From: Nitrospiria bacterium
GTDB lineage: Bacteria; Nitrospirota; Nitrospiria; SBBL01; JAADHI01
Assembly: GCA_945787655.1 (NCBI GenBank)
Contig: CALZIJ010000009.1
Coordinates: 67,588-105,436, forward strand
Length of the DNA stretch: 37,849 bases
Direction of reading: 5' to 3'
In this document: piece by piece, positions 2,895 to 31,679 of the stretch
Layout: each line of letters begins with the position of its first letter
How positions within the stretch are numbered: position 1 is the first letter of the stretch
Made by a program: the position numbers and the translations under genes
The notes under the pieces: model-generated
Told to the model about the DNA's origin: nothing
Databases searched by the model: none
What the model saw: only the letters and a program-made list of their open reading frames with translations

Positions 2895-3158
2895 ATGCGG
2901 ATGTTTCTGATCAATTTCCTGATTGGCCTGCTTGTGGCGACGATTGCCCACAGCAAGGGGCATTCCTTTATAAAATGGTGGATCAATGGCGTCATCCTCG
3001 GCCCGTTTGCATTGATTTACAGCATTTTTATGCCAAGAAGGAAACCCCTTCATACTGAGCAAGCCCGCATTCAATGTCCCCACTGTAAAAAAATGGTCGA
3101 AGCTTCGGCAACACAGTGCCCGCATTGTGAAAAGAAGATTGATATTGTTGATATTTAG
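2895..3158 (+). CDS. Small membrane protein with C-terminal zinc ribbon, function unknown
   Basis: An 87-residue protein with two hydrophobic segments (about residues 4-18 and 28-46) followed by a zinc-ribbon signature CPHCKKM...CPHCEKK, with cysteines at 61, 64, 75 and 78. Such one-domain zinc-ribbon membrane proteins are common and uncharacterised; the ribbon would face the cytoplasm or periplasm depending on topology. The start is uncertain: an in-frame stop lies just upstream at 2883, so only the ATGs at 2895 and 2901 are available, and neither has a clear ribosome site. Its stop overlaps that of the convergent larC by four bases. It lies 52 bases after tonB and may be the last gene of that operon. 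Confidence 0.7.
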   Translation: MRMFLINFLIGLLVATIAHSKGHSFIKWWINGVILGPFALIYSIFMPRRKPLHTEQARIQCPHCKKMVEASATQCPHCEKKIDIVDI

Positions 3159-3895
3159 GAAAAACTGTGGGGAGTCCCTAGCGCAAAGATCGCCCCATTG
3201 GGAAGGTTTTTCAAGACCCTCGTCCCGTAAACCCTTTTGACCTCATGAATCACCATTTTGGGCCATGCCCCATATTCAGTCTTAAACGCGCCCAATAATG
3301 CCATCGCCGTCGGAGTGACCGTTTCTCCATTCGAATCCACGCCATAAACCGGCACGTCCTTTAATAATTCCAACACAGCCGGAGCTGGAGTGGAAAGCAG
3401 GCCGTGTGCACAACGCACCGTCCCGTCACCTATCGGGATCGGACTGCAAATAAACCGGGAGGGTGCAATATAGTCAAACAACATACTGGAGAGGCAAATA
3501 TCCAATATACTGTCCAAGGCCCCAACTTCATGAAACTCCACCTCTTCTAATGAGATCTGATGAACGGCACTCTCAACCTCTGCCAGGCGAGAGAAAGCGG
3601 TCGATGCAAATTGTTTGGCCATGGGGGTCATTTGACTGTTTTGAATCATTTTCTGGATTTCACCATGGGATCGATGCAAAACCTGTGTCTCTAGCGAAAC
3701 CCGCGCCCGCCAACCCGCAATACGATTCACCGAAGTCTTTTCAAGAAATAAACATTCTTTTAAATCAGGGATTCCGATTTGAGTGATCAACCGGGACAGG
3801 GCATCTTGCTCCAAACCGGAAAGCGCCGCCAAACCCGTCAGGAGCATGTCGCCACTGATCCCTGAAGGCGTTCTCAATGTGAGAATTTTAGGCAT
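3155..3895 (-). CDS. larC: LarC-like nickel-insertion protein, N-terminal domain only
   Basis: LarC is the CTP-dependent enzyme that inserts nickel into the pincer nucleotide to finish the LarA cofactor. Seen: SGISGDM near the N-terminus, EFHEVGALDSILDI, the GDGTVRCAHGLLSTPAPAV segment, and ETVTPTAMALL; all are LarC hallmarks. The protein is 246 aa, against roughly 400 for full LarC. It stops at the LPNGAIFALG region, where the first domain (LarC1) normally ends, and no LarC2 sequence follows in any frame because a convergent gene occupies the space. The ATG at 3895 overlaps the larB stop by 8 bases; an upstream start would lie deeper inside larB. Last gene of the minus-strand run. LarC2 is the part known to bind CTP, so activity without it is uncertain. 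Confidence 0.88.
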   Translation of the reverse strand: MPKILTLRTPSGISGDMLLTGLAALSGLEQDALSRLITQIGIPDLKECLFLEKTSVNRIAGWRARVSLETQVLHRSHGEIQKMIQNSQMTPMAKQFASTAFSRLAEVESAVHQISLEEVEFHEVGALDSILDICLSSMLFDYIAPSRFICSPIPIGDGTVRCAHGLLSTPAPAVLELLKDVPVYGVDSNGETVTPTAMALLGAFKTEYGAWPKMVIHEVKRVYGTRVLKNLPNGAIFALGTPHSFS

Positions 3896-4553
3896 CTGCT
3901 TTTGAATTGAGCGCCCGAATAATCCGGGATGCCGCACAAGCCGCCCCATATCCGTTGTCAATATTCATCACTGTGACCCCGGACGCACAACTGGAAAGGA
4001 TTGCATTTAATGCCGTCTCTCCCTTTCGAGCCCGGCCATAACCCACTGAAGTCGGCACCGCGATGATCGGTCTGGGCGTCAAGCCGCCTAACACGGACAC
4101 CAAAGCCGCATCCATTCCGGCGATCACAATCAGCACGTCATGCGTATTAATTTCGTCAAGACGTTTTTCAAGCCGCCACAAGGCAGCCACGCCGATATCA
4201 TCAAATGCCGTATGTGCTATTCCCATATGGATCAAGGTCCGCGCGGCCTCCATCGCCACAGGAATATCGGATGTTCCGGCCGTCACCACAGCAATACGGC
4301 CGGATTGAAGTGGAGGGAAAACGCCATTTAAAAAAGCCGTTTTGGATTCGATGTGAAAATCAAGCCGGCCAGCCGCAGCCGGATCGAGCGCATGGTACTT
4401 TTCAGGCGTCATCCGGGTAAACAAGACGGGAGCGTTTTGGTCTGAGAGTTCGATAATCAAACGGTTCAGTATCTCGATTGATTTCCCTGCACAAAATACG
4501 GCTTCCGAGATCCCGATTCTCGCATACCGGGCATGATCATAAATCACGCTCAT
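3888..4553 (-). CDS. larB: LarB, pyridinium-3,5-biscarboxylic acid mononucleotide synthase
   Basis: First enzyme of nickel-pincer nucleotide synthesis; it carboxylates and hydrolyses nicotinic acid adenine dinucleotide. The C-terminal PurE-like half is clear: VVTAGTSDIPVA, FDDIGVAALWRL, IAGMDAALVSVLGG, VPTSVGYG, and SSCASGVTVMNIDNGYGAA, with Cys189 at the position of the catalytic Cys known from Lactobacillus LarB. At 221 aa it is about 25-30 residues shorter at the N-terminus than most LarB proteins and begins directly at the DHARYARIGISEAVF segment. The ATG overlaps the larE stop (ATGA), indicating translational coupling. PurE (AIR carboxylase) is excluded by the LarB-specific N-terminal segment and by the lar neighbours. 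Confidence 0.93.
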   Translation of the reverse strand: MSVIYDHARYARIGISEAVFCAGKSIEILNRLIIELSDQNAPVLFTRMTPEKYHALDPAAAGRLDFHIESKTAFLNGVFPPLQSGRIAVVTAGTSDIPVAMEAARTLIHMGIAHTAFDDIGVAALWRLEKRLDEINTHDVLIVIAGMDAALVSVLGGLTPRPIIAVPTSVGYGRARKGETALNAILSSCASGVTVMNIDNGYGAACAASRIIRALNSKADA

Positions 4554-5377
4554 TGCACGGCCTTTTTAAAAGCGCGCCCGGGACGATAGGCTGAGGGATC
4601 AAGCGCCACCGTCCTCACAAACGGATGCGCTTTTTTTATTTTCGACTTCAGGGCATCAAGCAGTCCTGCATTAAACTTCCCTCGGTCGGAAGAGAGGACT
4701 TCGATTTTCATATGATCCTCATCCAGCCGGCATCGCACCATTTTTAAGGACAAATGTTTTTGTAATGTGGTTTCTGAAAAATGAACGGCTTCAAGCCGTT
4801 CAGGCGTAACCCGTGTGCCGGTATAAAGGCGACTGGAAAGGCAAGGGGATGCGGGCAATTCGGAAAAAGGTAAGCCTAAATGCCGGGCACAGCGTCGAAT
4901 ATCGTCTTTTCCCATGCCCGCCTCGACATAAGGGTGGCGCACTTCAAAATCCTCCGCGGCAATCAATCCGGGACGGTATTCGGAAAGATCATCACAGTTT
5001 GTGCCACTCATTAAAGTAAATGGCGCTTCCTGTTTCGTTGAAAGGGTTCGGGACAATCGGGACATGGCCTGGTACAGATGGCTTTTGCAAAAAAAACAGC
5101 GATTGACCGGATTACTCAGATAATCTTCATCAAAAAACTCTTCGGCTTTTAAAAGATGAAGCAGCCATCCTTCTTTTTGAGCAAAGGCCTTGACCCTTTC
5201 TGTCGCTTCAGGCGGGACAGAAGGGCCGATAGAATGGGCAATATGACAACGCGAGCCTAAAATACGGTGGGCCACCACCGCGAGCAAAAGGCTGTCAATC
5301 CCGCCGCTGCAGGCGATAATGACCGGGCCTGCTGTTGAAAGCGTCCTTTGGAGCCCTGGATGATTACCTTTCAACAT
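4550..5377 (-). CDS. larE: LarE, ATP-dependent sacrificial sulfur transferase
   Basis: Adenylates and sulfurates the two carboxylates of the LarB product to give the thioacid pincer. A PP-loop ATP pyrophosphatase motif CSGGIDS lies at about residues 23-29, followed by NRCFFCKSHLY (Cys94, Cys97), SGTNCDDLSEYRPG and LPASPCLSSRLYTGTRVT. Cys179 in the SPCLSSR segment matches the sulfur-donating Cys176 of Lactobacillus LarE, so a sacrificial mechanism is likely. The protein is 275 aa, typical for the family. It follows the large secreted heparinase-like gene by 29 bases on the same strand and overlaps larB by four bases. With larB and larC it makes the cofactor used by LarA-family enzymes; a candidate user is encoded at 30423-31679. 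Confidence 0.93.
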   Translation of the reverse strand: MLKGNHPGLQRTLSTAGPVIIACSGGIDSLLLAVVAHRILGSRCHIAHSIGPSVPPEATERVKAFAQKEGWLLHLLKAEEFFDEDYLSNPVNRCFFCKSHLYQAMSRLSRTLSTKQEAPFTLMSGTNCDDLSEYRPGLIAAEDFEVRHPYVEAGMGKDDIRRCARHLGLPFSELPASPCLSSRLYTGTRVTPERLEAVHFSETTLQKHLSLKMVRCRLDEDHMKIEVLSSDRGKFNAGLLDALKSKIKKAHPFVRTVALDPSAYRPGRAFKKAVQ

Positions 5378-5406
5378 GAATTCAAAAAACCACCTTTAAA
5401 ACCGAC

Positions 5407-8172
5407 TCAATTAACGCTCAAGCCTGTGGGTGGGTCCGGCGGCAGATCAGGCGGTAAATCCCCGGCGCGAACCACTTGAAAAGTGGCGCCGCCCAATGCG
5501 TTAAAGAACAAAACGCCGCTGCCCGATGCCGCAGTGATGTTACTTAAAATTTTTGACCCGCCTCTGTAGATATCATACAAACCTGGAGTAATGTCCACGA
5601 GCAGATGTCTTCCGGTTTTGGACGAAGAATAACTCGTACTGTAGGTCGCTGAGGTGACTGAAGCGCCGCTTGTGCTGTTTGAAAACATAACCACCCTTGG
5701 CACAGTCGCATCATTGATTTGCGTCCCCACCATGGTGTCTCCGTCGATTCTGGTTGTGGGCGTCATTGAGGCGAGTGTTCCCGAATCGCCGAATTGCATG
5801 ACATTTAGAAAATGGTCATATTGCTGGCCGGTTGTACTTTGGATTTGCATGGTATAGGTTCCGCGGTAATATTTCTCCCAATCGGCCAATGTTTTTGTCA
5901 GCATCAGACGGCCCCGCATATCTTCCCAATAATGTCCCGAGCCACCGGTTTTGTTAATTTGAAAGCTTTGTGGCAACAGTGTTTTATTGAACAGGCGCCC
6001 GTGGGCAGTATTACCGCTCCATGACGCATTGAGCTCAATAATATTATTGTTCGTAGGGCTGCTATCCGTTCTGACCCATCGTCCACCACCGCTGTCAGGA
6101 TCGTCCGGGTAATCCTGAGCACTCATACTGATTTCACTTCCGGCACTGTTTTTCAGCTTTGGGGGATCGTACTGGACTTGAAGCAACCAGTATTTTGTCG
6201 TATCACTGACATTCGGGGTATTCAGCCGGTCAAAAACCACTACATATTCGTCATTGGTGCCGCCCGCCGAACGAAGATAGGCAAACTGTCTTTTTGCGTA
6301 ATCGACTTTTGAATTACTCCAGGCATTGGAATAATCGTAATCCACATAGTCATACTGCGTGCCGTTCAAGTCGGATTTCAGAATGGTCCCGGAATGATTG
6401 TCCCCATTAATTTGATAGGTGGCAGAAGTGTGGTCCAGCTCGTACTGCTTGAAATTATTTCTAAACTCGGCGTAATATTGATCCCCGGGTTCGAGATCAA
6501 TTTCAGCCTGACTCCGTACCGCCATGACATTGTACCAGGGATTCGTGTCTGTTTTTTTGCTGCCTGAGCCGGAAAAACCTTTCTTGATGTTGCGGTTTGT
6601 CGTCAAATGACCGTATTTGTAGATTTCAAACGCGCCGAATGTCTTGTGATTATGTCCCCCGCTTCCATTAAACCAGGTCGGTGCTTCAAACCGAACCACC
6701 GTGGCGTCGGGATCATCAAAAGCCGAAAGAAAATAATGCCGTCCGTTCCCGAGATTTGTCGACAAAGGGAGGTTTAAGGTCATCGGGCTTTTCGACGTCA
6801 CATTGTCGTGCCGATCGGTAAAAATCATCTCGAACAACAGCCATCTTTGCTGGATGTTGGACCCGCTTGTTGGCGAGTCACTTCCGTTCAACCAATTACT
6901 GTCATCACGAATCCACTTAAATAAAGACGCTAAATCATCGGAATCACTTTGATTACCGCGGGATAAAAAATGGATCGTGGGATTCATAATCATCCGCGTC
7001 ACTCTCCCAAAATCTCTTTTGTAATCCCAGGCCGGCTCCTTGGCTGAAGAATCCTGCGACTGGAACCACCGCAACTCGTCATCCTCTACAAATTTCCGGG
7101 GATTAACGGAATATAAAAAATAGAGCGGCACGTATTTCATCCAACCTGTTTGCTCGTAGTAATTCACATTAAGTGCCGTACTCATCGCGGGTAAAAAATC
7201 TGCCACTTTCTTGTAAGAAATTTGTTGGTACCCGATGCCTTCAACCGTTGAAATCCCATCGGTAAAGAACCTGTTATGCAGGGCAACAAAACCATCGATC
7301 CAATTCCTTTTTAGCAATCCCATTAATGTATCCAGGGTATCTGAGTAGGTGCTTGAACCGCTGTCATCCACATCATCCCCATACAAACCCAATACGGCCA
7401 TTCCATTTTGATAAGTCCCGTATGACTGCTCTGTAAACGGATTATCCGTCGTTCCGGCATATTTATTGTCATAGGCATTCTTGGTCGCACGGATGAAATC
7501 CTGCCGGTCCGATTTCGTGACTTTGCTAAACACCCAATCATTCACAACGGCAAGGGCCATGTTTTTTGGCCCATCGTGGCCTGTTCCGCCATAATCATAG
7601 GTATAGAAATCGAGCCAGTCATGTTTACTTGTGGTCGTTGAACTGACCGCATTAAGACGCGCGGCAATATGACGGGCATATTCCACTGCCTTGTCGCCGT
7701 ATTCATTGGTCGTATGCGCCGGAGTAATGCTTAAATTATAGGGGGAGAGTTTCAGGGCATCCACATCAACAATGTATAAAAAAGCGGCATTCATTGCATT
7801 TCGTGAAGCGTCTTGCCCCAGTGTCGAGGTAACAGACTTGCTCCATTGATCATCCATTTCTGCAATTAAATCCTTAAACCGGGCCAAATACGTCGCATCT
7901 GTTGTTAATTTCTGACGAATTTCTGTCACGGTCATTCCCATCGCACCCGGATTAGATGCCTTGTAGGACTCAGAAATCAGATAGACTCTCGGATGGACGC
8001 CTTCGGCGATGGGAGAACCCGCAGGGGGTGTCCAGGCCCAGCCCCATGAAGGGAGCATCATCAATAAAATAATAGCGCCACAAAAAAAACGAACGAAATT
8101 GGATGATAAATACAGATAAACACGATTTATAATCATTCCAGGAATGCCATGTTTTATTAAAATAGAATACAT
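5407..8172 (-). CDS. Large secreted heparinase II/III-like polysaccharide lyase
   Basis: A 921-residue exported protein with an N-terminal hydrophobic signal (about residues 26-46, FFCGAIILLMMLPSWGWA, then AWTPPAG). The N-terminal half begins with the EGVHPRVYL segment typical of heparinase-II-type alpha/alpha-toroid lyases. Around the middle is a catalytic-type His cluster, GGHNHKTFGAFEIYKYG, leading into the beta-sandwich region. Likely role: cleavage of an acidic polysaccharide in periplasm or outside. The ATG at 8172 has a good ribosome site (AGAGGGA, 5 bases upstream); an internal ATG at 8136 is possible. The C-terminus ends in a proline linker PPDLPPDPPTGLSVN, which looks like the first residues of a fibronectin type III domain cut off by the stop. 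Exact substrate unknown; heparinase-fold assignment is by motif only. Confidence 0.78.
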   Translation of the reverse strand: MYSILIKHGIPGMIINRVYLYLSSNFVRFFCGAIILLMMLPSWGWAWTPPAGSPIAEGVHPRVYLISESYKASNPGAMGMTVTEIRQKLTTDATYLARFKDLIAEMDDQWSKSVTSTLGQDASRNAMNAAFLYIVDVDALKLSPYNLSITPAHTTNEYGDKAVEYARHIAARLNAVSSTTTSKHDWLDFYTYDYGGTGHDGPKNMALAVVNDWVFSKVTKSDRQDFIRATKNAYDNKYAGTTDNPFTEQSYGTYQNGMAVLGLYGDDVDDSGSSTYSDTLDTLMGLLKRNWIDGFVALHNRFFTDGISTVEGIGYQQISYKKVADFLPAMSTALNVNYYEQTGWMKYVPLYFLYSVNPRKFVEDDELRWFQSQDSSAKEPAWDYKRDFGRVTRMIMNPTIHFLSRGNQSDSDDLASLFKWIRDDSNWLNGSDSPTSGSNIQQRWLLFEMIFTDRHDNVTSKSPMTLNLPLSTNLGNGRHYFLSAFDDPDATVVRFEAPTWFNGSGGHNHKTFGAFEIYKYGHLTTNRNIKKGFSGSGSKKTDTNPWYNVMAVRSQAEIDLEPGDQYYAEFRNNFKQYELDHTSATYQINGDNHSGTILKSDLNGTQYDYVDYDYSNAWSNSKVDYAKRQFAYLRSAGGTNDEYVVVFDRLNTPNVSDTTKYWLLQVQYDPPKLKNSAGSEISMSAQDYPDDPDSGGGRWVRTDSSPTNNNIIELNASWSGNTAHGRLFNKTLLPQSFQINKTGGSGHYWEDMRGRLMLTKTLADWEKYYRGTYTMQIQSTTGQQYDHFLNVMQFGDSGTLASMTPTTRIDGDTMVGTQINDATVPRVVMFSNSTSGASVTSATYSTSYSSSKTGRHLLVDITPGLYDIYRGGSKILSNITAASGSGVLFFNALGGATFQVVRAGDLPPDLPPDPPTGLSVN

Positions 8173-8486
8173 TTATTCCCTCTCTATAAAATAATATGAA
8201 GACATTGAAACGCGGCTTTGATTGATCAAAAGCACAATTTATGCCCACGCTCTTCTCTATAATAAATAACAACGTAATAAGCCAAAAAAGACAAATATTA
8301 TTAATTTATTACCATACGATGGTTCTGTTACTTGCATTCAAATTCATGCTGACAAGAAACCGATTACATAGAAAATGTGGTGCTGTTTCCCTAAACAATA
8401 AAGATTCCATCCTGCCTTTACGATAGTGGTTCAAGCTCAGCATTCACAGGAACATGACTGCATTTGGCATTGATTTGTGCAAAGCC
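8173..8486. other. 314-base non-coding gap between the MBOAT gene and the secreted lyase gene
   Basis: The only large break in the minus-strand run. It is A+T-rich with no convincing gene; a 61-codon plus-strand frame at 8241-8426 has no ribosome site or recognisable features. On the minus strand a weak sigma70-like pair is present: TTGGCT (8280-8285) and TATTAT (8259-8264) with a short 15-base spacer. A local promoter for the secreted lyase and larEBC is therefore possible but not demonstrated. No strong hairpin followed by a T-run was found, so a terminator for the upstream genes is not supported. Confidence 0.35.
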
Positions 8487-9893
8487 CTAAAATTGGAAAT
8501 AAATAAATGGTTGAAACCCTTTTGGGTAAAATAACACGACAAGCCATATCAAACAAAAAAGAATCGCCGGGGTATACCATGCGTTTACGGGTAACATATG
8601 CAGTTTGGTAATATTTAAATCATGAATAACATGAACCAATACCGTTAAAATTAGAATAAATAGCACAAATGGATGCATCCAGGAAACCCCTTCCCCCAAA
8701 AGAAACATTTTTTGAAGGATCAACATGGCCTGGGAAAAATCCTGCGCCCTGAAAAACACCCATCCTGTCAACACAACCGTCATGGTCAATCCCCAATTGG
8801 CAATGCGGGGAAACTGTATCCCCTGAAACAACACTGCTTTTTCCATTTTTATGTTCTGCCAGTAACGATGTACGATCAATGCAAATCCGTGCCAAATGCC
8901 CCAAAACACAAAAGTCCACGCAGCGCCGTGCCACAAACCGCAAAGCGCCATTGCAACAAAGGTATTGATATAGGTCCGTCTCTGGCCTTTCCGGTTTCCT
9001 CCCATGGGAATATAAAGGTAATCTCGAATCCAGGTTGAAAGGGAAATATGCCATCTCCTCCAAAAATCGCCAATACTTTTTGCAATATAAGGAAAATTAA
9101 AATTGATATTCAGGTCATAACCCATAATCCTTGAGATACCGATGGCCATATCCGAATACCCTGAAAAATCACAATATATTTGTATCGAATACGCAAACAT
9201 CGCAAGCCAAAGGGTGGCTCCGTCAAAAGCCGCCGCATTGGAAATAACCGGATCGATAAACATGGCCAAGCGGTCTGCGACAAAAACTTTCTTAAACATC
9301 CCTATGACAAAAATACGGCTCCCCTCAAGAAAATTGGTTTTTGTCAAAGGCACATATTGTCTAAGCTGCGGCAAAAAATGCGATGCCCGCACAATTGGCC
9401 CGGCCACCAATTGAGGGAAAAAAGCCACAAAAACAGCAAAATCAAGCAGGCTTGTACACGGTTCAATCTTTTTGTTGTAAACATCAATCGTATAACTTAA
9501 GGTCTGGAAGGTATAAAAAGAAATGCCAACGGGGAGAATAATGTTTAATGTTGAAACATTTAAATTCAATGGAGTCAGTATCACCTGAAACGATGAAATA
9601 AAAAAGTTAAAATATTTAAAGAAAAAGAGAATGCCCAAGTTCACGACAAGGCTGCTGATCAAAAAAAACCGACGCCGGGTTAGATTCAAGGTTTTGGTAA
9701 GTTGAAGGCCAATGCTGTAGTCCACTATTGTTGAGACCAGAATCAGACACAGAAAGCGGTAATCCCAATAGGCATAAAAATAATAACTCGCGACAAGGAT
9801 TAATCCCTTTCTGGCGGTGTTGTTCTTCATCCAAAAAAGATACAGCAACACGGTGATAATAAAAAAAGCAAATTCAATTTGTGTGAATAACAT
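8487..9893 (-). CDS. MBOAT family membrane O-acyltransferase, AlgI-like
   Basis: Multi-pass inner-membrane protein expected to pass acyl groups to the periplasm for polysaccharide O-acylation, as AlgI does for alginate. At 468 aa with about 10-12 membrane segments it shows the MBOAT hallmarks PVGISFYTFQTLSYTIDVY, FPQLVAGPI, YCDFSGYSDMAIG, FWRRWHISLSTWIRDYLYIPMGGN and CGLWHGAAW. The His in LWHG is at residue 322, the usual catalytic position. I start it at the ATG at 9893, one base after the preceding stop (TGACATG); an in-frame start at 9941 would overlap the neighbour by 47 bases. It pairs with the SGNH/AlgJ-like gene directly upstream. Acyl donor and polymer unknown. Confidence 0.92.
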   Translation of the reverse strand: MLFTQIEFAFFIITVLLYLFWMKNNTARKGLILVASYYFYAYWDYRFLCLILVSTIVDYSIGLQLTKTLNLTRRRFFLISSLVVNLGILFFFKYFNFFISSFQVILTPLNLNVSTLNIILPVGISFYTFQTLSYTIDVYNKKIEPCTSLLDFAVFVAFFPQLVAGPIVRASHFLPQLRQYVPLTKTNFLEGSRIFVIGMFKKVFVADRLAMFIDPVISNAAAFDGATLWLAMFAYSIQIYCDFSGYSDMAIGISRIMGYDLNINFNFPYIAKSIGDFWRRWHISLSTWIRDYLYIPMGGNRKGQRRTYINTFVAMALCGLWHGAAWTFVFWGIWHGFALIVHRYWQNIKMEKAVLFQGIQFPRIANWGLTMTVVLTGWVFFRAQDFSQAMLILQKMFLLGEGVSWMHPFVLFILILTVLVHVIHDLNITKLHMLPVNAWYTPAILFCLIWLVVLFYPKGFQPFIYFQF

Positions 9894-9894
9894 G

Positions 9895-10932
9895 TCAGTG
9901 TAAATTTTCTTCGCTGATGTAATTAAAAATGGCTTCCGCAACCAGACGATTTCCGTCCTCGTTCAAATGACCTTCTCCAGGCTTTGAATTGATGAAACCG
10001 CTGTGAAATCGACCCGTGCGCTGGTGAAACCCGATAAACCATTGTTCAAGGCTGATAAAACCCATCCCGTGCGTTTTGGCCATTTTAGAAAAATCTTTCA
10101 TAAAAGGCGCGAGGGGATCTGTAAAATCAAACCGCCCATCCCTTAATTCGGGAACCCTGGGGACATACACAAAAACAATGGGAAGCGATGTTTGCGCTGC
10201 AAGCTTTTCAAATAAAAACCGGAGAGCGGCTTTCTCATCATATGCCTTTTGAGAATGACCTTGTGCTTTTATTCTTTGCGGGACGGGTCCGATTGCAAAA
10301 CGAAAATCCTTCAAATCCGGCATGGACTTTGCGAGCGCGAAGAGAAAATTCAGATCCAGATCATAAATAAGCTTCCTTAAAAAAAGGGGGCCCTGCGGCT
10401 CTCTCTGTTTTAATATAAACTTGAATTCCGGGTCGGCCACAAAAAGTGACCCCCTTCTTTTTTTTCCTGGGAGCACATCCCGTCTATGATTTATCAGAAT
10501 AAAATGAGCCGCAATCGTTGGATTCAGCCGCTCATATTTCGGGAGATCAAAATAATAATCCACAACTGCGCCGCCTAAGGCCCCCACCCCGAAAGCAACC
10601 AGATCCAAACCATTTTCAGCACTTATTTTTGTAAACACCTGAGCAATTTTTTTATCATCGTCCACCTGGATGGCTTCAACAAAGGAATCCCCCCAAATGG
10701 CAATTTTACGGGATTGAATCTTTGTAATATCCGGAATACCATGGATCCCCAAGGCGCCAGAGACACTGGACCCCCAGCCTTCATTTCTTTCCCGGTTAAC
10801 GGTACCCGCGACCCGGACATACTTCTTTAAACCGGGATGCCACTCATAGGGCTCAATCGTGTCAATAAAAATGGCTGAGACCAGCCAGGTAAACCCGATT
10901 GAAAAAAGAAAGCTGCAGGCTATTTTTTTCAT
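9895..10932 (-). CDS. SGNH-hydrolase-like protein, AlgJ/AlgX-type partner of the MBOAT
   Basis: A 345-residue protein with an N-terminal signal anchor (residues 1-23) and an SGNH/GDSL fold. The nucleophile motif IWGDSFVEA places Ser at residue 83, and the C-terminal block is GEGHLNEDGNRLVAEAIF. The His is present, but the acidic residue before it is Glu rather than the usual Asp. Such proteins sit beside MBOAT acyltransferases and finish acyl transfer onto polysaccharide in the periplasm; that role is inferred from context. It overlaps the upstream glycosyltransferase by four bases (ATGA) and is one base from the MBOAT gene. Confidence 0.8.
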   Translation of the reverse strand: MKKIACSFLFSIGFTWLVSAIFIDTIEPYEWHPGLKKYVRVAGTVNRERNEGWGSSVSGALGIHGIPDITKIQSRKIAIWGDSFVEAIQVDDDKKIAQVFTKISAENGLDLVAFGVGALGGAVVDYYFDLPKYERLNPTIAAHFILINHRRDVLPGKKRRGSLFVADPEFKFILKQREPQGPLFLRKLIYDLDLNFLFALAKSMPDLKDFRFAIGPVPQRIKAQGHSQKAYDEKAALRFLFEKLAAQTSLPIVFVYVPRVPELRDGRFDFTDPLAPFMKDFSKMAKTHGMGFISLEQWFIGFHQRTGRFHSGFINSKPGEGHLNEDGNRLVAEAIFNYISEENLH

Positions 10933-11921
10933 TCGTTACACCCTTGCCGCGAATGGGTTAAAACCTTCAGAAGCTGGGCTTTGTTTTCTTCGAAAAAGGC
11001 CAGTTTCGTTTTTCTTAAAGCAGCGGCCTCTCTGTGCAGATCTTCCAGCCTGGATAAGCCCCTTTTAATTCCCGCAGCAATCCCGCTTGGTGAATTATCG
11101 ACAAACTCCGCTCCCCGGTCGAAACTCTTTCTTAATATGGCCCAATCTGAAGTCACCACAGGCTTTCCGAAATAGATGGCCTCATAAGCCCCGCGCTGCA
11201 TTGTGTGATCCCTTGTGGTTAACACCGCAATTAAATCCGAGGCCTGCATCAAGCCGTAATAATCTCTCTCATCCAGAAAATCGGTAAATCGGACATTTTC
11301 AGGTTTTTGTTTTGTATACACCTGATTTTTTTTCCCGATTTTCCCCGTCACATGGAAACGGACTTCCGGGAGCTGCCCGGCCGCTTCCAAAAAATTTGAG
11401 ATCGGTTCATCATGTGCAAAGGTATTCACCAACATGACATTGAATTTCCCCTTTAATTCCGGGGCGCTTGCTTCACTACATTGAATAGGAATATCCGGAA
11501 TAATCAGATATTTTGCCCCCCACCCGTCCAGAATTTTTCCAATACCCGAATTCGTTACAATTGTGCAGACCGCTTTTCTACAAAAAAATTTTTGCAGAAA
11601 CATCACTTTCTGCCACATCGGATGATCAAAGGCCCCGGTGTGTGCATCAATCACATACGACGCATCAAATATTTTACAATGGATAAAAATCGGAAAACAC
11701 GCAAACACTGGCGGCGACATGACAAAAACCACATCCGGTCTGTCCCTGAATAATATGCTCAGGGTTTTGATCGCTTGAAAAAAATATTTCAGGACAATCG
11801 TGAAATAATGACTCCCAAAAAAATCAAAATAGACCATGTAGGATTTACCGCCCAGCTCACGAGCGGTGTTATCACTCCGACTACAATAAGGCTGCCATGA
11901 AATATAAACAATTTTCGGCAT
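10929..11921 (-). CDS. Glycosyltransferase, GT4-like (GT-B fold)
   Basis: A 330-residue cytoplasmic sugar transferase. The C-terminal half has the GT-B donor-binding pattern: NVMLVNTFAHDEP, VRFHVTGKIGKK, VRFTDFLDERDYYGLMQASDLIAVLTTRD, and the E-x7-E-like MQRGAYEAIYFGKPVVTSDW. The N-terminal half includes RPDVVFVMSPPVFACFP, as in other polysaccharide GT4-type enzymes. The donor sugar cannot be read. It follows the broken glycosyltransferase by 15 bases and overlaps the SGNH-like gene by four. Confidence 0.85.
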   Translation of the reverse strand: MPKIVYISWQPYCSRSDNTARELGGKSYMVYFDFFGSHYFTIVLKYFFQAIKTLSILFRDRPDVVFVMSPPVFACFPIFIHCKIFDASYVIDAHTGAFDHPMWQKVMFLQKFFCRKAVCTIVTNSGIGKILDGWGAKYLIIPDIPIQCSEASAPELKGKFNVMLVNTFAHDEPISNFLEAAGQLPEVRFHVTGKIGKKNQVYTKQKPENVRFTDFLDERDYYGLMQASDLIAVLTTRDHTMQRGAYEAIYFGKPVVTSDWAILRKSFDRGAEFVDNSPSGIAAGIKRGLSRLEDLHREAAALRKTKLAFFEENKAQLLKVLTHSRQGCNE

Positions 11922-11936
11922 AAGGGCCTCTATTTA

Positions 11937-13005: not shown

Positions 13006-13009
13006 CCGT

Positions 13010-15223: not shown

Positions 15224-15229
15224 TTACTT

Positions 15230-16770: not shown

Positions 16771-16783
16771 ACAAAATTTCTTA

Positions 16784-18616: not shown

Positions 18617-18643
18617 AATGTCCTCTATGATTGTGGTGCGCTT

Positions 18644-20125: not shown

Positions 20126-20179
20126 CTTAATGCACTATTATCGGGAAATATATAATCCGTTTGACGTGGTAAACGAGGT

Positions 20180-21301: not shown

Positions 21302-21314
21302 TTTTATGATCGGG

Positions 21315-23210: not shown

Positions 23211-23221
23211 CGGCTTTCCTA

Positions 23222-24586: not shown

Positions 24587-24590
24587 GAGA

Positions 24591-25820
24591 TCAAGTTTCC
24601 CTGGAATACATGGTTTGTGGAAATGCCGTCCGGGTGCATATTTCCTGAAACACTTCTCCGACATGCGGCCAGGTGCAATTTCCTCTGACAAAATCAGAGG
24701 CATTTTGGCCAATCATTTTCCTTCTCTCCTCCTGGCCGAGCAAGCTTATAATCTCCTGGCTGAAACCAGATGCACCATCTTTTAAAATAATGTTTTCCCC
24801 GTCTTTAACAGATAGTCCTTCCGCCCCGATCGATGTTGAAAGAATGGCTTTTCCCATCGCCATGGCTTCATAAATCTTCATACGGGTGCCCCCGCCGATT
24901 CTGATCGGGACAATGTAAAGTGCCGCTTTGGCAATATAAGGGCGGACATCTTTTACCCAGCCAGTCAACTGAACTTCAGATACGCGGGTCAGTATTCTTT
25001 TTAAACGGGGGGAAGGGTTCCTTCCGACCACCTTCAAAACAATGTCCGGGATCGTTTTTTTGATTGAAGGCAGAATATCATGGATAAAAAAAATCACGGC
25101 ATCCTCGTTCGGAAGCCAATCCATCGATCCCACAAAAACCAGTGTGTTGGCTTCTATTTTTTCGGCTCGGGGCGTGTAATAATCGATATCGACCCCCGTT
25201 GGAATTTCCGCCACATTCTCCAATCCATACAAGGATTGAAAAGTGGCACGATCCTGTTTTGAAACAGCAATCACCGTGGTAAATTTACTGCAAATCCATT
25301 TCTCGAAATAAAACAGTTTTTTCCACTGCAGCCACCAGAATAGTTTCGATATAACACCGCGTGCCCCTTCAAAATGTCTTTTACACACCTGAGATTCCAC
25401 ATTGTGCTGGAATAAAATAGACGGCGTCCCGCCAATATTTTTAAAATTCAGCGCCGATTGGATAAAATCACACACCACCAGGTCATATTTTTCTTTTTCA
25501 TGCGCATCTTCGACCGCCAACTGCAACGCTCTGGAATGGTCATTGAGCACCGAAACCGGAAATAAAGAGAACATTTGGAAAAAGAGCCGCATAAAAAAAA
25601 GGGGAGAATATTTTTTGATTTCTTTCCAGGAAACAGGGATAAACCGGGTGCACAGCGTTTGTATTTCAGATAAATAAGGGCTGTCTTTCGGCGACTCAAC
25701 ATTTGAAATCAGCGTAATTTCGTTGATCTTGGCCAATTGCTCCAAGATTTTTCCTGTCCGGATTTTCCCGCCCGTGTCCATGGGCAAAAGAAAGCGTTGC
25801 GATAGAAAAAGAATCTTCAT
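24591..25820 (-). CDS. GT4 glycosyltransferase (GT-B fold)
   Basis: A 409-residue sugar transferase. The N-terminus MKILFLSQRFLLPMDTGGKI gives the acceptor-domain Gly-rich loop. Later come ILFQHNVESQVCKRH, VIAVSKQDRATF, EIPTGVDIDYYTP, LVFVGSMDWLPNEDAVIFF, VQLTGWVKDVRPYIAKAALY and the donor site GGGTRMKIYEAMAMGKAIL with conserved Glu. The GSMDWLPNEDAV segment is like that of the glycosyltransferases of EpsH/exosortase-A loci. It lies 3 bases after the dehydrogenase gene and 4 before the ligase-like gene, in a tight operon. Donor not determinable. Confidence 0.9.
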   Translation of the reverse strand: MKILFLSQRFLLPMDTGGKIRTGKILEQLAKINEITLISNVESPKDSPYLSEIQTLCTRFIPVSWKEIKKYSPLFFMRLFFQMFSLFPVSVLNDHSRALQLAVEDAHEKEKYDLVVCDFIQSALNFKNIGGTPSILFQHNVESQVCKRHFEGARGVISKLFWWLQWKKLFYFEKWICSKFTTVIAVSKQDRATFQSLYGLENVAEIPTGVDIDYYTPRAEKIEANTLVFVGSMDWLPNEDAVIFFIHDILPSIKKTIPDIVLKVVGRNPSPRLKRILTRVSEVQLTGWVKDVRPYIAKAALYIVPIRIGGGTRMKIYEAMAMGKAILSTSIGAEGLSVKDGENIILKDGASGFSQEIISLLGQEERRKMIGQNASDFVRGNCTWPHVGEVFQEICTRTAFPQTMYSRET

Positions 25821-25823
25821 CCC

Positions 25824-27155
25824 TTACCAGCAAACCCCCTCATATCCGCTTGAGGCGTCGTCAAGGTTTTTAAAGATCCGAACCAAATCAAACACCCGCT
25901 TTTCACTGGAGATGTTTTTCATAATATAGTCGGCTTCTTCCGCCTTATTGCCAATTACAATCAGGTCGGATTCTGCCATCAGCTCATCGATATCACCCGT
26001 CATCAGCATGGAAATGTGCGGGATTTCCTTTTCAATGTATTCCTTGTTTGCGCCGAACAGCTTGGCCAGAGAAACATTCCGGTCAAAGATTTTCACCTGA
26101 AACCCTTTTCCGATCAGCGACTCCACCAATTCTACCAAAGGAGACTCCCTTAAATCGTCCGTTCCCGCTTTAAAACTCAAACCCACAAAGCCCACCCTTT
26201 TGGTCCCGGACCGAATAATTTTATTCACTACCCGTTCAATCTGCACTTTATTGCTGGGCAAAATCGCATTCAGCAAGGGCACATCGACATCCTGCGTTTT
26301 GGCCTTGTACGTCAAGGCCCTGAGATCTTTCGGAAGACAAGATCCCCCAAAAGCAAAACCCGGTTTTAAATAATATGAGGAGATGTTTAACTTGTCGTCC
26401 ATGCAAAAAATTTCCATGACTTTATGGCTGTCGATCCCCAGCGTTTTGCAGATACCACCGATCTCGTTGGCAAAAGTCACCTTGGCCGCGTGAAAACAAT
26501 TACAGGCATATTTCATCATTTCCGCGGTTTTGATGTCCGTTCTTTCCAGAGGCGCCTCTAAAAACGTATACATCTCGCATAAAACATCCCCGCTTTTTTG
26601 ATCATATTGACCAATGACGGTCATGGGCGGGTTAAAAAAATCTTCCACCGAAGTGCTTTCTCTTAAAAATTCAGGATTCATCGCAATGCCAAAATCCTCC
26701 CCCACACGCTTTCCCGAAGCTTCTTCCAAAGCGGACAGGATGACGTCCTCAACACTGCCGGGGAGCATGGTGCTTCTGGCCACCACCACATGGTAGGATT
26801 TCTTTTTGGCAAGACTGTGTCCTATCTCGGAAGCGCAACGCCTGACATAATCCAGTTTTAAACTCCCGTTTTCGTGACTGGGTGTCCCGACACAAATCAA
26901 AGAAATATCGGTTTGCAGAACCGCCTTTTCGGTATCCGTCGTCGCACTAAGCTGACCAGGATGATACTGATCCGTTGTAACCGTATCAGAAATAATTTGG
27001 CCGATGTCCTTCTCAACGATGGGACTTTTCCCGGCGTTGATCAAATCCACCTTCACAGCATTGACATCCACGCCAACCACCTCATGTCCCACTTTTGCCA
27101 GACAGGCCGCTGACACGCAGCCCACATAACCCAATCCAAAAACCGAAATTTTCAA
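25824..27155 (-). CDS. algD: GDP-mannose 6-dehydrogenase-like nucleotide-sugar dehydrogenase
   Basis: Oxidises a nucleotide sugar at C6 to the uronic acid with NAD+. The protein is 443 aa: NAD-binding FGLGYVGCVSAACLAKVGHE, ICVGTPS, RSTMLPGSV, NPEFLREST, substrate segment YLKPGFAFGGSCLPKD with catalytic Cys273, and KVGFVGLSFKAGTDDLRES-like C-terminal NAD/sugar domain. The catalytic region and the final residues EGVCW match Pseudomonas AlgD closely as remembered, more so than UDP-glucose dehydrogenase, so GDP-mannuronate is the favoured product. The TTG start at 27155 overlaps the preceding stop (TTGA) and has GGAG six bases upstream. UDP-glucose dehydrogenase is the alternative. Confidence 0.86.
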   Translation of the reverse strand: MKISVFGLGYVGCVSAACLAKVGHEVVGVDVNAVKVDLINAGKSPIVEKDIGQIISDTVTTDQYHPGQLSATTDTEKAVLQTDISLICVGTPSHENGSLKLDYVRRCASEIGHSLAKKKSYHVVVARSTMLPGSVEDVILSALEEASGKRVGEDFGIAMNPEFLRESTSVEDFFNPPMTVIGQYDQKSGDVLCEMYTFLEAPLERTDIKTAEMMKYACNCFHAAKVTFANEIGGICKTLGIDSHKVMEIFCMDDKLNISSYYLKPGFAFGGSCLPKDLRALTYKAKTQDVDVPLLNAILPSNKVQIERVVNKIIRSGTKRVGFVGLSFKAGTDDLRESPLVELVESLIGKGFQVKIFDRNVSLAKLFGANKEYIEKEIPHISMLMTGDIDELMAESDLIVIGNKAEEADYIMKNISSEKRVFDLVRIFKNLDDASSGYEGVCW

Positions 27156-28864
27156 AGCGATCTCCTTTTATTCATCTCTATTGAATTCATTATCATTGTC
27201 GCGGTCAAACGCCTGAGCTGCTCATGATCCAGCGAATTATCCGATAAATATCGCTTGATCAGTTCGCGTAAACGGGTTTGATCAGAAACCAGTCGAAAAT
27301 ATTCAAAATCCTGAATGCCTCTTCGAATGGCCTTTAGGCGCAAGGACGCCACCGGCCCCAATACCCCGTTCTTATTCTGAGGATACACTAAAAAATCACG
27401 CCCATCTGAAACCACCGCATTCTTCTTAATTGTACTCCAAAACACCAGTCCGTCTTCATTTCGCAACCAGGCCCGCCAACCATAGTGCATCGCCTTTCTG
27501 AGCGGTTCATCAATCAGAGGCATACGGGTTCCGGCCATGTATTCAAAAATCGACTTCCCTTGTACTTTCAGGGCCTTTGCCTTTTGCCGGGGCAAGGCAT
27601 CATCCATCGAGTGTTTCGAAATGACCCAGATATCGACAGGAGACAGTATGGTTTCACCACGATTGGCCTTAAAATCCTTATCAGGGTGACCTCTGTGTTT
27701 CTCACAATAAAAGTGGGAGATGTCCATCCGAAACTTAAAACGGGGACTGCGCTGAAAAACACCGTGCGTCAAATCGGCATAATATCTGAGTGCTTTATAA
27801 TCTTTTTCACCTTTGGGTTCATCCAGATTCCAGGGAATACGATTATTTTTCCTCGGCTTTTGATTTAGAAAAATTTGAAAGACTGTTTGCTCCCAGCCTT
27901 TCTCCTTAAAATGGGTCATGAACGCTTCGGCGATCACACGCCATTCCGTTTCGTATTTTTCCCGGTCATTTTGATAATTCGAAAAATCAGAGGGCCATTC
28001 CGGATTAAAAGGAAGATATTGATGAGAGACAGGTCTTTTATTGTCAAAAAGCGAACCGCTAAAAAGCGGGCCGTAGAAGGCATCATACGGACGCCAATCC
28101 TTAACGTGTATTTCCTCACCTGCGCCGGATAATACAGGCGCCATGCCCGGATGCGGCCGTCCCCGTTGGCTTTTGTATGGGAGAGGATTAAACAACATGC
28201 GGTGCTTTCTTGAAAAGAGATAAAAATTCATGGCAAGTCGTCGGCCGGCAGCAGAATCTGCTTTCACATCCGCCTCTTTTAAAAACCCAAGCCCGTAATT
28301 ATTTAAATCCACCGTCAGTGATGGTTCTTGCGGCAATGTAAAGGGATAAACAGTCACTGTTATTTTAATAGAATAAACAAGGTCATCGTCATCATGGAGC
28401 GTCAGTCGGCCTTGATATTTTCCCGGCAAAGTCTGTTTAGGAATCAATACATCCACCCAGACCACTTGAGCCATCCTGCTTTTCGTGGAAGGAGTCAGTT
28501 GAAAACGGCTTCCCGGCGCCAATGGAAGCAGGCAGTCCGGCGGGTCGGACTGCTGACAGGTCTCCAGGGTCAACAACTGCACATTGTGTTGTCCAAAGGG
28601 AGATGGGCCTTCAAAATCTTCAATTTTAAAATGAAAGGCGGAGCCGATTTTCTTCACCTCATTGAGAACCAGCTGAAAGGAGAGGGTTTCATTCCCTGCA
28701 CCGGCAAGCGCAATGGCTTCCCCGGACGGGACAGGCTGAAACGCCCGCTGATTTGAAGGGTGATACTTCACCGTTTGCGAAGTATATAAAACGTCTATTG
28801 CTTCTCCGTTTGCGGGGAAACACATGCACATTATCAAAAAAAAGAAACAGCGGCTCTTTTTCAC
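27152..28864 (-). CDS. Secreted DUF4091 / GH123-like glycoside-hydrolase-fold protein
   Basis: A 570-residue exported protein (signal peptide about residues 1-22, CFFFLIMCMCFPANGEA). A beta-rich N-terminal domain (LSFQLVLNEV, WVDVLIPKQTLPGKYQGRLTL) precedes a TIM-barrel-like part. The C-terminal hallmark SLRLKAIRRGIQDFEYFRL is that of DUF4091, a region found at the end of GH123-related proteins. It may trim or edit the polysaccharide, but no catalytic pair could be assigned. The start is GTG at 28864, overlapping the AMP-ligase stop (GTGA). Why a hydrolase-like gene sits between the ligase and the dehydrogenase is unclear. Confidence 0.8.
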   Translation of the reverse strand: MKKSRCFFFLIMCMCFPANGEAIDVLYTSQTVKYHPSNQRAFQPVPSGEAIALAGAGNETLSFQLVLNEVKKIGSAFHFKIEDFEGPSPFGQHNVQLLTLETCQQSDPPDCLLPLAPGSRFQLTPSTKSRMAQVVWVDVLIPKQTLPGKYQGRLTLHDDDDLVYSIKITVTVYPFTLPQEPSLTVDLNNYGLGFLKEADVKADSAAGRRLAMNFYLFSRKHRMLFNPLPYKSQRGRPHPGMAPVLSGAGEEIHVKDWRPYDAFYGPLFSGSLFDNKRPVSHQYLPFNPEWPSDFSNYQNDREKYETEWRVIAEAFMTHFKEKGWEQTVFQIFLNQKPRKNNRIPWNLDEPKGEKDYKALRYYADLTHGVFQRSPRFKFRMDISHFYCEKHRGHPDKDFKANRGETILSPVDIWVISKHSMDDALPRQKAKALKVQGKSIFEYMAGTRMPLIDEPLRKAMHYGWRAWLRNEDGLVFWSTIKKNAVVSDGRDFLVYPQNKNGVLGPVASLRLKAIRRGIQDFEYFRLVSDQTRLRELIKRYLSDNSLDHEQLRRLTATMIMNSIEMNKRRSL

Positions 28865-30426
28865 GGGCGGGTCCTGTCCTGACTGATCGAATGGGCCTGA
28901 ATCAATTTCTGTTTTAATATCTTCCCGGATTCATTTTTGGGTAAATCGGGCATCCATTCAAAAACGTGTGGAATTTTATATGGCGGCAAATATTCTTCAC
29001 AATATTTCATCAAGTCTTCTGTCTTGAGATCCACATTCGGGCCTAAAACAATACAGGCTTTAATCGCCTCGCCCAATGTGTCCTCAGGGATTCCGATTAC
29101 AGCCGCCTCATGAATGCCCGGATGATGATGCAAGACCTCTTCAATTTCTTTTGGGCTCACTTTGTGGATACCGCTTTTAATCAGGTCTTTTTTTCTGCCG
29201 GTCACGTAAAAAAAACCTTCATGGTCCATGCGGCCTAAATCCCCGGTATAATACCATCCCTTTTTTAAAACCTTTCGAGTCTCTTCAGGATTCCGCCAAT
29301 ATCCGCACATCATATTGCTTCCCCTGGCGACAATTTCACCTTCTTCCCCAGTGGCCGCTTCCTGACCGTTATCTCGCATAATCTTCATCTCAACATTGGG
29401 GATTGGTTTTCCAATCGAAGTCATCTTTTCTGAAAATTTTTCGGGCATCAAATAGGAAAGCCGCGCCGATGCTTCCGTCGCACCGTACATAATAAAAATG
29501 CGTTTGTCCGGAAATTTTTTCAACAATTTTTCTTTCACAAAAACCGGCATATGCCCCCCGGCCTGTGTGAGATATCGGAGATCTGGAAAATTCATTCTGG
29601 CAATGGATGATTGATTCAACAAAATCGAAAATGTAGAAGGCACACCCGCAAAACCGGTGACCGCCTCATCTATCATGGATTTTAAAACGGCATTGGGAAA
29701 GGTAAAGCGATTATCGAGTACGATCGATCCGCCAACGGAAAAATGGAGATTAAGCAAGGTTTTTCCATAGACATAATAAAAAGGCAAAACCACCATGCCT
29801 CTGTCCTGGGCATTCAATTCAAGATAGCTCACAATAGAACGGGTATTGGAAACCACGTTCAAATGACTGAGGGTGACACCCTTGGGCGTTCCGGTACTGC
29901 CGGACGTATAAATGATGGACGACAAATCCATATCCACCTGAGTAGTTTGAGGCCGGGTTGAAGGATATGCGGGTGTGATCTCCTCTAAACACATCCCCCC
30001 TTCACCCAGAGCGTCTTTTTGCTCTGACGCAGTATCGGCCGACAAAATGATCGGAACCCACTCTTTAAGTGCAGACAACACTTCCGGGGATCTTAAAAAA
30101 TGTTTTTCAGAAATTAATATTTTCGGATCCGCGTCCTTTAAAACAGGACACACTTCATTGATTGCAATGCCGGTATTTACGGGTACGACAACAGCGCCTG
30201 CCTTTAATATCCCGTAATAACAGGCAATATAATATATTGAATTTCTCAGCAAAAGGGACACGCGATCGCCCCGCTTCACGCCCTTGTCCAAAAACCAGTG
30301 TGCGATCTGATTGGCCTGAATCTCCACTTCACGATACGACCACCGCTTCCGCCCGTGGATGACTGCGATTTTTTCTGGAAACTGATCGGCGCTCTGTTCT
30401 AAAAAATGGTGAATTAAGTAGCTCAT
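28861..30426 (-). CDS. AMP-forming acyl ligase (acyl-CoA/acyl-ACP synthetase family)
   Basis: A 521-residue adenylate-forming enzyme that activates a carboxylic acid with ATP and passes it to a thiol (CoA or an ACP arm). Seen: P-loop YTSGSTGTPKG at residues 173-183, MYGATEASARL, YTGDLGRMDHEGFFYVTGRKKDLIKSG, and the catalytic Lys502 in ESGKILKQKL. I start at ATG 30426, which overlaps the larA stop (ATGA); a longer frame to 30690 lies inside larA and lacks family similarity. The acyl carrier protein is encoded two genes upstream, with larA between, so loading onto that ACP is a natural guess. Acid substrate unknown; a 2-hydroxy acid is inferred from larA. Confidence 0.92.
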   Translation of the reverse strand: MSYLIHHFLEQSADQFPEKIAVIHGRKRWSYREVEIQANQIAHWFLDKGVKRGDRVSLLLRNSIYYIACYYGILKAGAVVVPVNTGIAINEVCPVLKDADPKILISEKHFLRSPEVLSALKEWVPIILSADTASEQKDALGEGGMCLEEITPAYPSTRPQTTQVDMDLSSIIYTSGSTGTPKGVTLSHLNVVSNTRSIVSYLELNAQDRGMVVLPFYYVYGKTLLNLHFSVGGSIVLDNRFTFPNAVLKSMIDEAVTGFAGVPSTFSILLNQSSIARMNFPDLRYLTQAGGHMPVFVKEKLLKKFPDKRIFIMYGATEASARLSYLMPEKFSEKMTSIGKPIPNVEMKIMRDNGQEAATGEEGEIVARGSNMMCGYWRNPEETRKVLKKGWYYTGDLGRMDHEGFFYVTGRKKDLIKSGIHKVSPKEIEEVLHHHPGIHEAAVIGIPEDTLGEAIKACIVLGPNVDLKTEDLMKYCEEYLPPYKIPHVFEWMPDLPKNESGKILKQKLIQAHSISQDRTRP

Positions 30427-31679
30427 GACAATAATTGGAGCGGAGCATGTGGAAGAATCGTGACATTGCACTGCTCCCCGAAACGGCTTTTTATCATATT
30501 CAGCACATCGCCCCAGTTTGTTTTGAAGGGGTAACTTTCGTGAAAAATTTTCCGGTATTCTGCAGGATTGACGTTTTGAGAAAAAAAGATCAACGCATTC
30601 TCTTTCAGAAAACGGCGTTGTACAGGCGGCTTGTAAAGACGCATCCCGGGACCAAAAAGGGAATGATGGCCAAGACCATTTGAACAACAACTGGTTAAAA
30701 TGATCAGTCCGTCTTTTTTAACAATAGGCTCTTTGATTGATTTCAAAGGGGTAAATGCCGTATCAGCCTGGAGTAATTCTGAATCTTTAGGGTAGGCATT
30801 CAAAATTAAGACATCCGCATCCCGCGGGACAGGGGTATTATAAATTTCGCGCCCGAAGTCCACCCCCTTACGGTGAGCCTTGACCAAATCTCCAGCGAAC
30901 AAGCCGGCCGGCATTCGTTTGGCATTGGGAACAACCCCGACAAAAAAATCTACACCGACTTGCTGAACCACATTTTCCAGTTCCAGGCGGAACTTGTTGT
31001 TCTTCACCTCGTTGACGCCTCCACGAAGCCCCATCATGACAAATTTATGGCTGCGCTCCAGTGTTGCAATATCTGAAAGGCCCGGCAAAACCAATTTTCC
31101 ACCGGCACTGAATCCCGCAAAATGGTGGGGCATAATACTGCCGATTGTGATCTTAAAATCGGCATGATAAAAATCCCGATTCACCTGAAACGGGGTCTTT
31201 CCAAGTAAAATACCCGTATCCACCAAATTGTCATATGGATTGTGATTCAATACCCAATATTCACTAGCAATGGCTTTTCCCAGCTTCCGTTCTACATCTT
31301 CACGAAGCATGGGCGCATGGGCGCCATTGCAAATAATGAAAAAGATATTTTCCTTGGATACGCCCGCACGGAGCAAGCGTCGGAGCACAGCATTCAACAC
31401 CCCTTCCAATATTGAAGGGCGGGTAATATCCTCAATGGCAATCGCCACTCGGGATTTCCCCTGGGCCAGTTTTTCAAGGGGTTCACATCCGATCGGCTGA
31501 GACAGCGCAGACTCAATCTCTGTTTCGCTTAAACCCGGCGCGTCTGTTATCGCACAATAGGATATATTCCAGCCTTCGGGCATTTCGAGCCTGAATTCAC
31601 CCTCGTCATACCATGCCCCCCAAGGTAAATGTGGAACCGCATTCATATCAAGACCGGTTTTCCTGTTTGTTTTCGACAT
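30423..31679 (-). CDS. larA: LarA-family nickel-pincer-dependent 2-hydroxyacid racemase/epimerase
   Basis: A 418-residue homologue of lactate racemase, which interconverts stereoisomers of a 2-hydroxy acid using a nickel-pincer cofactor. Seen: EDITRPS (Arg87), NGAHAPM (His121), PHHFAGFSAGGK (His185 and Lys195) and SHKF (His211). The spacings His-Lys 10 and Lys-His 16 equal those of His174, Lys184 and His200 in Lactobacillus LarA, where the Lys holds the cofactor. The substrate-site Gln is kept (Gln304), but the residue three on is Thr307 where lactate racemase has Lys298, so the substrate may not be lactate. The ATG at 31679 overlaps the ACP gene by 32 bases; an ATG at 31646 (11 residues shorter) avoids this and is equally possible. 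larEBC lie in the same run at 3155-5377. Confidence 0.9.
   Translation of the reverse strand: MSKTNRKTGLDMNAVPHLPWGAWYDEGEFRLEMPEGWNISYCAITDAPGLSETEIESALSQPIGCEPLEKLAQGKSRVAIAIEDITRPSILEGVLNAVLRRLLRAGVSKENIFFIICNGAHAPMLREDVERKLGKAIASEYWVLNHNPYDNLVDTGILLGKTPFQVNRDFYHADFKITIGSIMPHHFAGFSAGGKLVLPGLSDIATLERSHKFVMMGLRGGVNEVKNNKFRLELENVVQQVGVDFFVGVVPNAKRMPAGLFAGDLVKAHRKGVDFGREIYNTPVPRDADVLILNAYPKDSELLQADTAFTPLKSIKEPIVKKDGLIILTSCCSNGLGHHSLFGPGMRLYKPPVQRRFLKENALIFFSQNVNPAEYRKIFHESYPFKTNWGDVLNMIKSRFGEQCNVTILPHAPLQLLS

Follow-up and report, generated by a model that had tools for sequence, protein, structure and literature searches.

A dedicated nickel-pincer (Lar) gene set in a Nitrospiria exopolysaccharide locus, predicted to edit the stereochemistry of a glycan decoration

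A set of nickel-pincer nucleotide (NPN) genes, comprising a LarA homolog and the cofactor-building LarE, LarB and LarC, is embedded in an exopolysaccharide (EPS) locus of a Nitrospiria bacterium, and we judge it fairly probable that it serves the NPN-dependent stereo-editing of a 2-hydroxy acid, which would be loaded onto an acyl carrier protein (ACP) and transferred to an amine of the glycan. The window, i.e. the whole stretch of 37,849 nt analyzed here, lies at the end of contig C9 in a metagenome-assembled genome (MAG) of 3.04 Mb that is 98% complete. Under the favored reading, LarE, LarB and a LarC1-only protein would build the cofactor, with the LarA of the same locus as its sole user; LarA would flip the C2 hydroxyl center of a 2-hydroxy acid; an AMP-forming ligase would activate the selected stereoisomer and then load the ACP; the neighboring deacetylase would expose a sugar amine; and a GNAT-like acyltransferase would move the acyl group onto it, giving an N-(2-hydroxyacyl) sugar. 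At the level of sequence, all these parts are present, exclusive to the locus, conserved in their linkage and associated with glycan loci across a clade, and from them we infer in what order the steps run, that the substrate is a hydroxy acid and that it becomes part of the polymer. Against this reading stand the replacement of two LarA residues (Lys298 by Thr/Asn and Tyr294 by Leu/Val), a LarC without its LarC2 half and loci of genus g16 in which the ligase and ACP were not found.

All genes of the locus lie on the minus strand, from 37839 down to 3155, and most overlap or are spaced by less than 60 nt (Table 1). Besides the interruption at a broken GT4 gene, the one large gap is of 314 nt, preceding the terminal heparinase II-like gene upstream of larE. 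The AMP ligase and larA genes overlap by 4 nt, while the translation of LarA probably starts at Met12 (about 31646), because this position abuts the ACP stop and equals the start of the G007 homolog, and because residues 1-12 of the structural model are of low confidence. The closest NCBIfam matches of the ACP are specialized ACPs, every one of them under its cut-off, and the label of the SGNH-like protein comes from a reading of the sequence, with no family match. The earlier note on this DNA had placed a LarA with Lys195, His121, His185 and His211 inside a polysaccharide operon and larE, larB and larC at the end of the same minus-strand run; the residues, the Lar_N match and the EPS gene set bear out the former, and the scores of all three cofactor genes beyond their NCBIfam cut-offs the latter. 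The gene content as a whole is best explained by an exopolysaccharide that is predicted to be sulfated and O-acylated, to contain uronate and to bear one further decoration. Two further features of the window lie beside these. The GT4 gene at about 11930-13071 is interrupted by an in-frame stop near 12358, and further on the frame changes; it is intact in a genome of the same genus (G001; L022:32-1111, 359 aa), and the window copy may have become a pseudogene or reflect an error in the MAG assembly. Convergent with the end of the locus, positions 102-2842 encode an ABC transporter ATPase, ExbB, ExbD and TonB.

Table 1. Genes of the locus, with positions in the window and the basis of each assignment
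Feature	Position	Strand	Basis
GT2 glycosyltransferase, running to contig end	35794..37839	-	family search
Bifunctional sulfate adenylyltransferase/APS kinase (activated sulfate, glycan sulfation)	34041..35753	-	NF004040 above cut-off
Polysaccharide deacetylase family protein	32999..34009	-	PF01522 E 1.9e-24
GNAT-like acyltransferase	31939..32988	-	Acetyltransf_9 (weak), homologs, context
Acyl carrier protein, phosphopantetheine motif GIIDSLG (Ser37)	31648..31899	-	PF00550 above cut-off
LarA homolog, NPN-dependent racemase/epimerase superfamily	30423..31679	-	Lar_N E 2.8e-45, active-site alignment, AlphaFold and Foldseek to 9eia
AMP-forming acyl ligase, 521 aa from MSYLIHH	28861..30426	-	PF00501 E 1.2e-81 and AMP-binding_C
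Rest of EPS run (part 1): GH123-like, UDP-sugar dehydrogenase, GT4s, Wzy, AsnB x2, Wzx	5407..28864	-	family searches
Rest of EPS run (part 2): APH-like, sulfotransferase, heparinase II/III, SGNH-like, MBOAT, secreted heparinase II-like	5407..28864	-	
LarE, [4Fe-4S]-type	4550..5377	-	TIGR00268 226.7 bits, cut-off 150; residues
LarB	3888..4553	-	NF033503 248.6 bits, cut-off 175
LarC1-only putative nickel-insertion protein, 245 aa	3155..3892	-	TIGR00299 167.8 bits, cut-off 90; PF01969 positions 3-229/375

The LarA ORF contains a Lar_N domain (PF09861, 154.5 bits), and its AlphaFold model (pLDDT 92) is matched over its full length by Foldseek to solved LarA structures (TM 0.83 to 9eia). Alignment with Lactiplantibacillus plantarum LarA equates Lys195, His121, His185 and His211 of the window protein with K184, H108, H174 and H200, and D84, R87 and Q304 with Asp72, Arg75 and Gln295. 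The equivalents of the NPN-binding Arg75, Lys184 and His200 are thus kept (R87, K195 and H211), as are both catalytic histidines, 108 and 174 (H121 and H185). Domain, fold, NPN ligands and catalytic histidines fit membership of the LarA superfamily, with C2 inversion as the predicted activity. Two other positions depart from the L. plantarum enzyme: Lys298 is replaced by Thr in the window (T307) and in G001 and by Asn in G007, a genome of the same family and another genus, and Tyr294 by Leu in the window and Val in G007. In the structure of LarA with D-lactate, Lys298 and Gln295 touch the substrate carboxylate and Tyr294 the 2-hydroxyl (PMC11851776), and Lys298 has been counted among the catalytic residues (PMC7583248). 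A lactate or malate racemase is rejected on this residue pattern, in which neither Lys298 nor Tyr294 is kept. No named NCBIfam LarAH group is reached above its curated cut-off, the best match being LarAH6 (malate racemase) with 253 bits against 500. Since the protein falls outside the characterized LarAH groups and is devoid of the carboxylate-binding Lys, ordinary lactate-type chemistry cannot be assumed. The position preceding Lys298, for which a role in side-chain recognition has been proposed (PMC7583248), is acidic (Asp/Glu) in the LarA of this locus; one might speculate that a substituent of polar or cationic character could be accommodated there.

The presence of a ligase, an ACP and a GNAT beside LarA makes the decoration of the glycan with an acid the natural reading; the acid would be attached to the amine freed by the deacetylase. 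Published work has cautioned that genomic context is not always predictive of LarA substrate (PMC7583248). GNAT homologs were recovered in just 7 of 147 relatives, with an adjoining ACP in all seven, and a polysaccharide deacetylase lies at or close to the GNAT in the GNAT-bearing genomes. The four GNAT genomes without LarA have a ligase followed by a TIGR03099-type PLP decarboxylase; among their ligases that of G107, the only one scored, passes TIGR03098 (exosortase A-associated ligase; 625 bits) and the others closely resemble this family, while the window ligase scores 390.3 bits, under the cut-off of 592.35. The PLP decarboxylase has no tblastn match in the window or in the fetched loci of G001 and G007. 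Exosortase (TIGR02602) is over cut-off in the window genome (G000), G001 and G007, and in the last it is encoded within the locus. As the decarboxylase occurs in the cassettes that lack LarA, and LarA in those that lack the decarboxylase, these observations suggest that GNAT, ACP and ligase form a fixed acyl-attachment core in which the acid-supplying enzyme may have been exchanged for a nickel-pincer one. Directly downstream of larC, G001 encodes a secreted protein (L021:10291-10956) with a PEP-CTERM-like tail (PTPEPGSF...RSKR), which fits the link to exosortases.

The order ACP-larA-ligase is common to all three genomes with this type of locus (the window, G001 and G007), and would also be compatible with LarA inverting a 2-hydroxyacyl thioester on the ACP, in the manner of the epimerases of modular synthesis, instead of the free acid. 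The replacement of the carboxylate-binding Lys298 by Thr or Asn would fit such a neutral thioester, going by the role of this residue in the D-lactate structure (PMC11851776). However, the carboxylate-contacting R87 and Q304 are retained together with both histidines, and the known LarA substrates are all free carboxylates (PMC11851776). We therefore regard inversion on the carrier as a possible but unlikely route.

Turning to the cofactor pathway, LarE displays a PP-loop (SGGIDS) and the cluster ligands Cys94-x-x-Cys97 and Cys179, a CxxC...C pattern found in the [4Fe-4S] type of LarE (PMC9283937). The LarC proteins of the window, G001 and G007 (3155-3892, L021:11151-11888 and L025:673-1449, respectively) end in the alignment at the boundary between LarC1 and LarC2, with the whole C-terminal half absent and the shortened end, LPNGAIFALG, conserved. 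The LarC1 sequence matches the LarC entry 12bi (E 3.5e-35); a fold search of the PDB with the LarC1 model gave no match, the library apparently being without 12bi. A LarC2 profile retrieved nothing in all three genomes even at E 10, and a LarC2 encoded elsewhere in the genome was rejected on the same threshold (no match at E<=10). Nor was one found in another frame 3' of larC, where about 300 nt are left before the convergent tonB. Among the class relatives LarC is encoded by 138 of 147, with intact copies covering both halves of the family; other partial matches (G015, G031, G146 and the second fragment of G118) have different ends and may reflect contig edges. LarA is found in only 19 of these genomes, and most members of the class may produce the nickel-pincer cofactor with no LarA as its user. 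Within LarC, it is the LarC2 half that binds CTP. LarC has been characterized as CTP-dependent, with CTP cytidinylylating the precursor (PMC11796402). Being without the CTP-associated half, the present LarC does not allow the ordinary cofactor pathway to be assumed. A conjunction of both departures, with LarA acting on an ACP-thioester hydroxyacyl group and its cofactor arising by a shortened pathway of LarC1-only nickel insertion without the CTP-using domain, appears unlikely to us.

To place the window LarA in a family tree, as had been proposed for it, we used 31 sequences including L. plantarum LarA and Mar2. It clusters with the LarAs of G001 and G007 and those of genera g16 and g24 and of G291 and G243 (support 100/98), in a clade separate from L. 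plantarum LarA and Mar2; six further g16-type members were joined to the clade by sequence identity to tree members, not by placement in the tree. A glycan-locus setting is seen for 24 of the 25 clade members examined, the window, G001 and G007 included, the exception being G243 on a long branch. In the g16-type loci (17/17 examined, including G418) LarA is found with a Wzx-like flippase and ahead of a PMT-like glycosyltransferase, and in nearly all it is beside a GT2. The three g24 loci (L038-L040) have LarA flanked by an acyltransferase-3 on one side and an ATP-grasp ligase on the other, and a FemAB protein is encoded close by, whereas in G291 it is found amid glycosyltransferases and an ABC-type exporter (the latter read from the sequence start). 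No homolog of the AMP ligase or ACP of the window was detected near LarA in the g16 loci, so that activation is not a universal trait of the clade. As the activating enzymes vary among the sub-branches, the feature that they share is the glycan location. Some peculiarities of individual branches may be recorded here: in the g24 LarAs the second catalytic His is replaced by Gln; the g16/G418 loci (L031, L027-L037, L113-L117, L147), where fetched, contain a nucleotidyltransferase and a PLP aminotransferase-like gene by our reading of the sequence; and G290, from another class, encodes five LarA homologs outside glycan loci (L106-L109).

The g16 loci, with no ACP or ligase detected, are among the observations that would accommodate a LarA that epimerizes a sugar acid (an aldonate or uronate derivative) into a sugar residue or its precursor instead of preparing an acyl decoration; gluconate-acting LarA groups are known (PMC7583248), and the locus encodes a UDP-sugar dehydrogenase. 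Nevertheless, the hexonate-epimerase model scores a mere 29.6 bits against the window LarA (cut-off 500), as opposed to the 253 bits of the malate-racemase group, and each locus of the type seen in the window, G001 and G007 has a dedicated ligase, ACP and GNAT on the flanks of LarA. This role for the enzyme is quite unlikely.

The phyletic pattern of the genes points to a dedicated set. The genome encodes a single LarA and a single LarC, and LarB and LarE each exceed the cut-off once; all four lie in the EPS locus. G001 keeps the complete gene order with larEBC last, while in G007 larE-larB-larC-GNAT-ACP-larA-ligase form an uninterrupted series inside an exosortase-type EPS locus with different surroundings. 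LarA, LarB, LarE, LarC, the GNAT and the terminal heparinase II-like protein are absent from G002-G005; in G006, LarB, LarE and a full-length LarC are scattered over three contigs, with no LarA and no locus. Given the linkage in G001 and G007 and the joint absence in G002-G005, the Lar genes and the locus are gained and lost as a unit. Hence, the proposal of the earlier note that a dedicated Lar set serves a surface-glycan locus is strengthened: these are the only Lar genes of the genome, they stay linked after rearrangement and they are lost together with the locus. As for its suggestion of looking in other genomes for larA beside ligase, ACP and GNAT genes in glycan loci, G001 and G007 have this arrangement, and in both larA co-occurs with larEBC, the opposite of what it had expected of chance neighbors. 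Conserved linkage, co-loss and the clade-level glycan context likewise rule out a chance neighborhood. In wider scans of contigs a three-row LarA alignment retrieved only two Nitrospirota MAGs, OFTM336 and OFTM308, which correspond to G001 and G007, besides a distant LarA from Moorella, and the single protein had no match, and a plasmid search yielded distant LarAs only (<35% identity).

Decay or loss of function of the Lar set, with LarC half lost, would be in keeping with the lack of LarC2 in any of the three genomes and with the broken GT4 nearby in the window. Yet all three species have LarA, LarB, LarC1 and LarE in intact form, the shortened end of LarC is conserved, and between G000 and G001 the four proteins show synonymous difference proportions of 0.71-0.82 (saturated or near) against nonsynonymous ones of 0.20-0.27, and all four are therefore maintained; we consider decay improbable. 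That the Lar genes are mere passengers, with LarA acting in general hydroxy-acid metabolism and its glycan location fortuitous, would agree with LarAs of the phylum outside the 100/98 clade lying outside glycan loci (e.g. G290), but is highly improbable given a linkage that survives rearrangement in G007, the joint loss in four relatives, the presence of nearly the whole clade in glycan loci and an active site that is not lactate-type.

The nearest known systems share some features with the window set and differ in others. Mar2/LarAH6 and LarAH5 (NF052593, NF052595) include the best-scoring named family and share the fold, the NPN Lys and His and the two catalytic histidines, but the window LarA falls short of their cut-off (253 against 500 bits), belongs to a separate clade, has Lys298 and Tyr294 replaced and has His-Phe instead of Tyr-Lys after the second His. 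As in the L. plantarum lar operon, larA, larB, larC and larE are all in one locus; however, the window set is without a lactate transport context and instead has an ACP, a ligase and a GNAT around it in an EPS locus, its LarE is of the [4Fe-4S] type and its LarC is LarC1 only. With the exosortase A-associated cassette (TIGR03098 and TIGR03099) it shares the GNAT-ACP-AMP ligase core, an exosortase-type EPS locus and a nearby deacetylase, but the ligase has diverged (390 against 592) and LarA and larEBC are found in place of the decarboxylase. The LarAH with a single catalytic His (PMC12611868) is likewise a LarA branch with an altered active site and a tentative link to carbohydrate metabolism; in that branch Asn takes the place of the second His and the neighbors are glycolysis genes, while the window LarA has both histidines and a setting of glycan assembly. 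In line with the impression of the earlier note that such a system is undescribed, a literature search retrieved no relevant report of LarA with a polysaccharide or O-antigen, in Nitrospira or in surface-glycan assembly, the family being known from small-molecule and sugar-acid metabolism. The families are known ones, in a combination for which no description was found, and the LarC1-only member departs from the definition of the LarC family.

As a naturally LarC2-free protein and the sole LarC of its genome, the LarC of this locus offers a direct test of whether the CTP-associated half is needed for building the nickel cofactor. A LarA branch confined to glycan loci would give a testable role to many orphan LarAs, and it predicts that bacterial polysaccharides carry a chiral acyl group not reported so far. 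In the organism at hand, LarA probably determines which stereoisomer of an acid decorates the surface coat.
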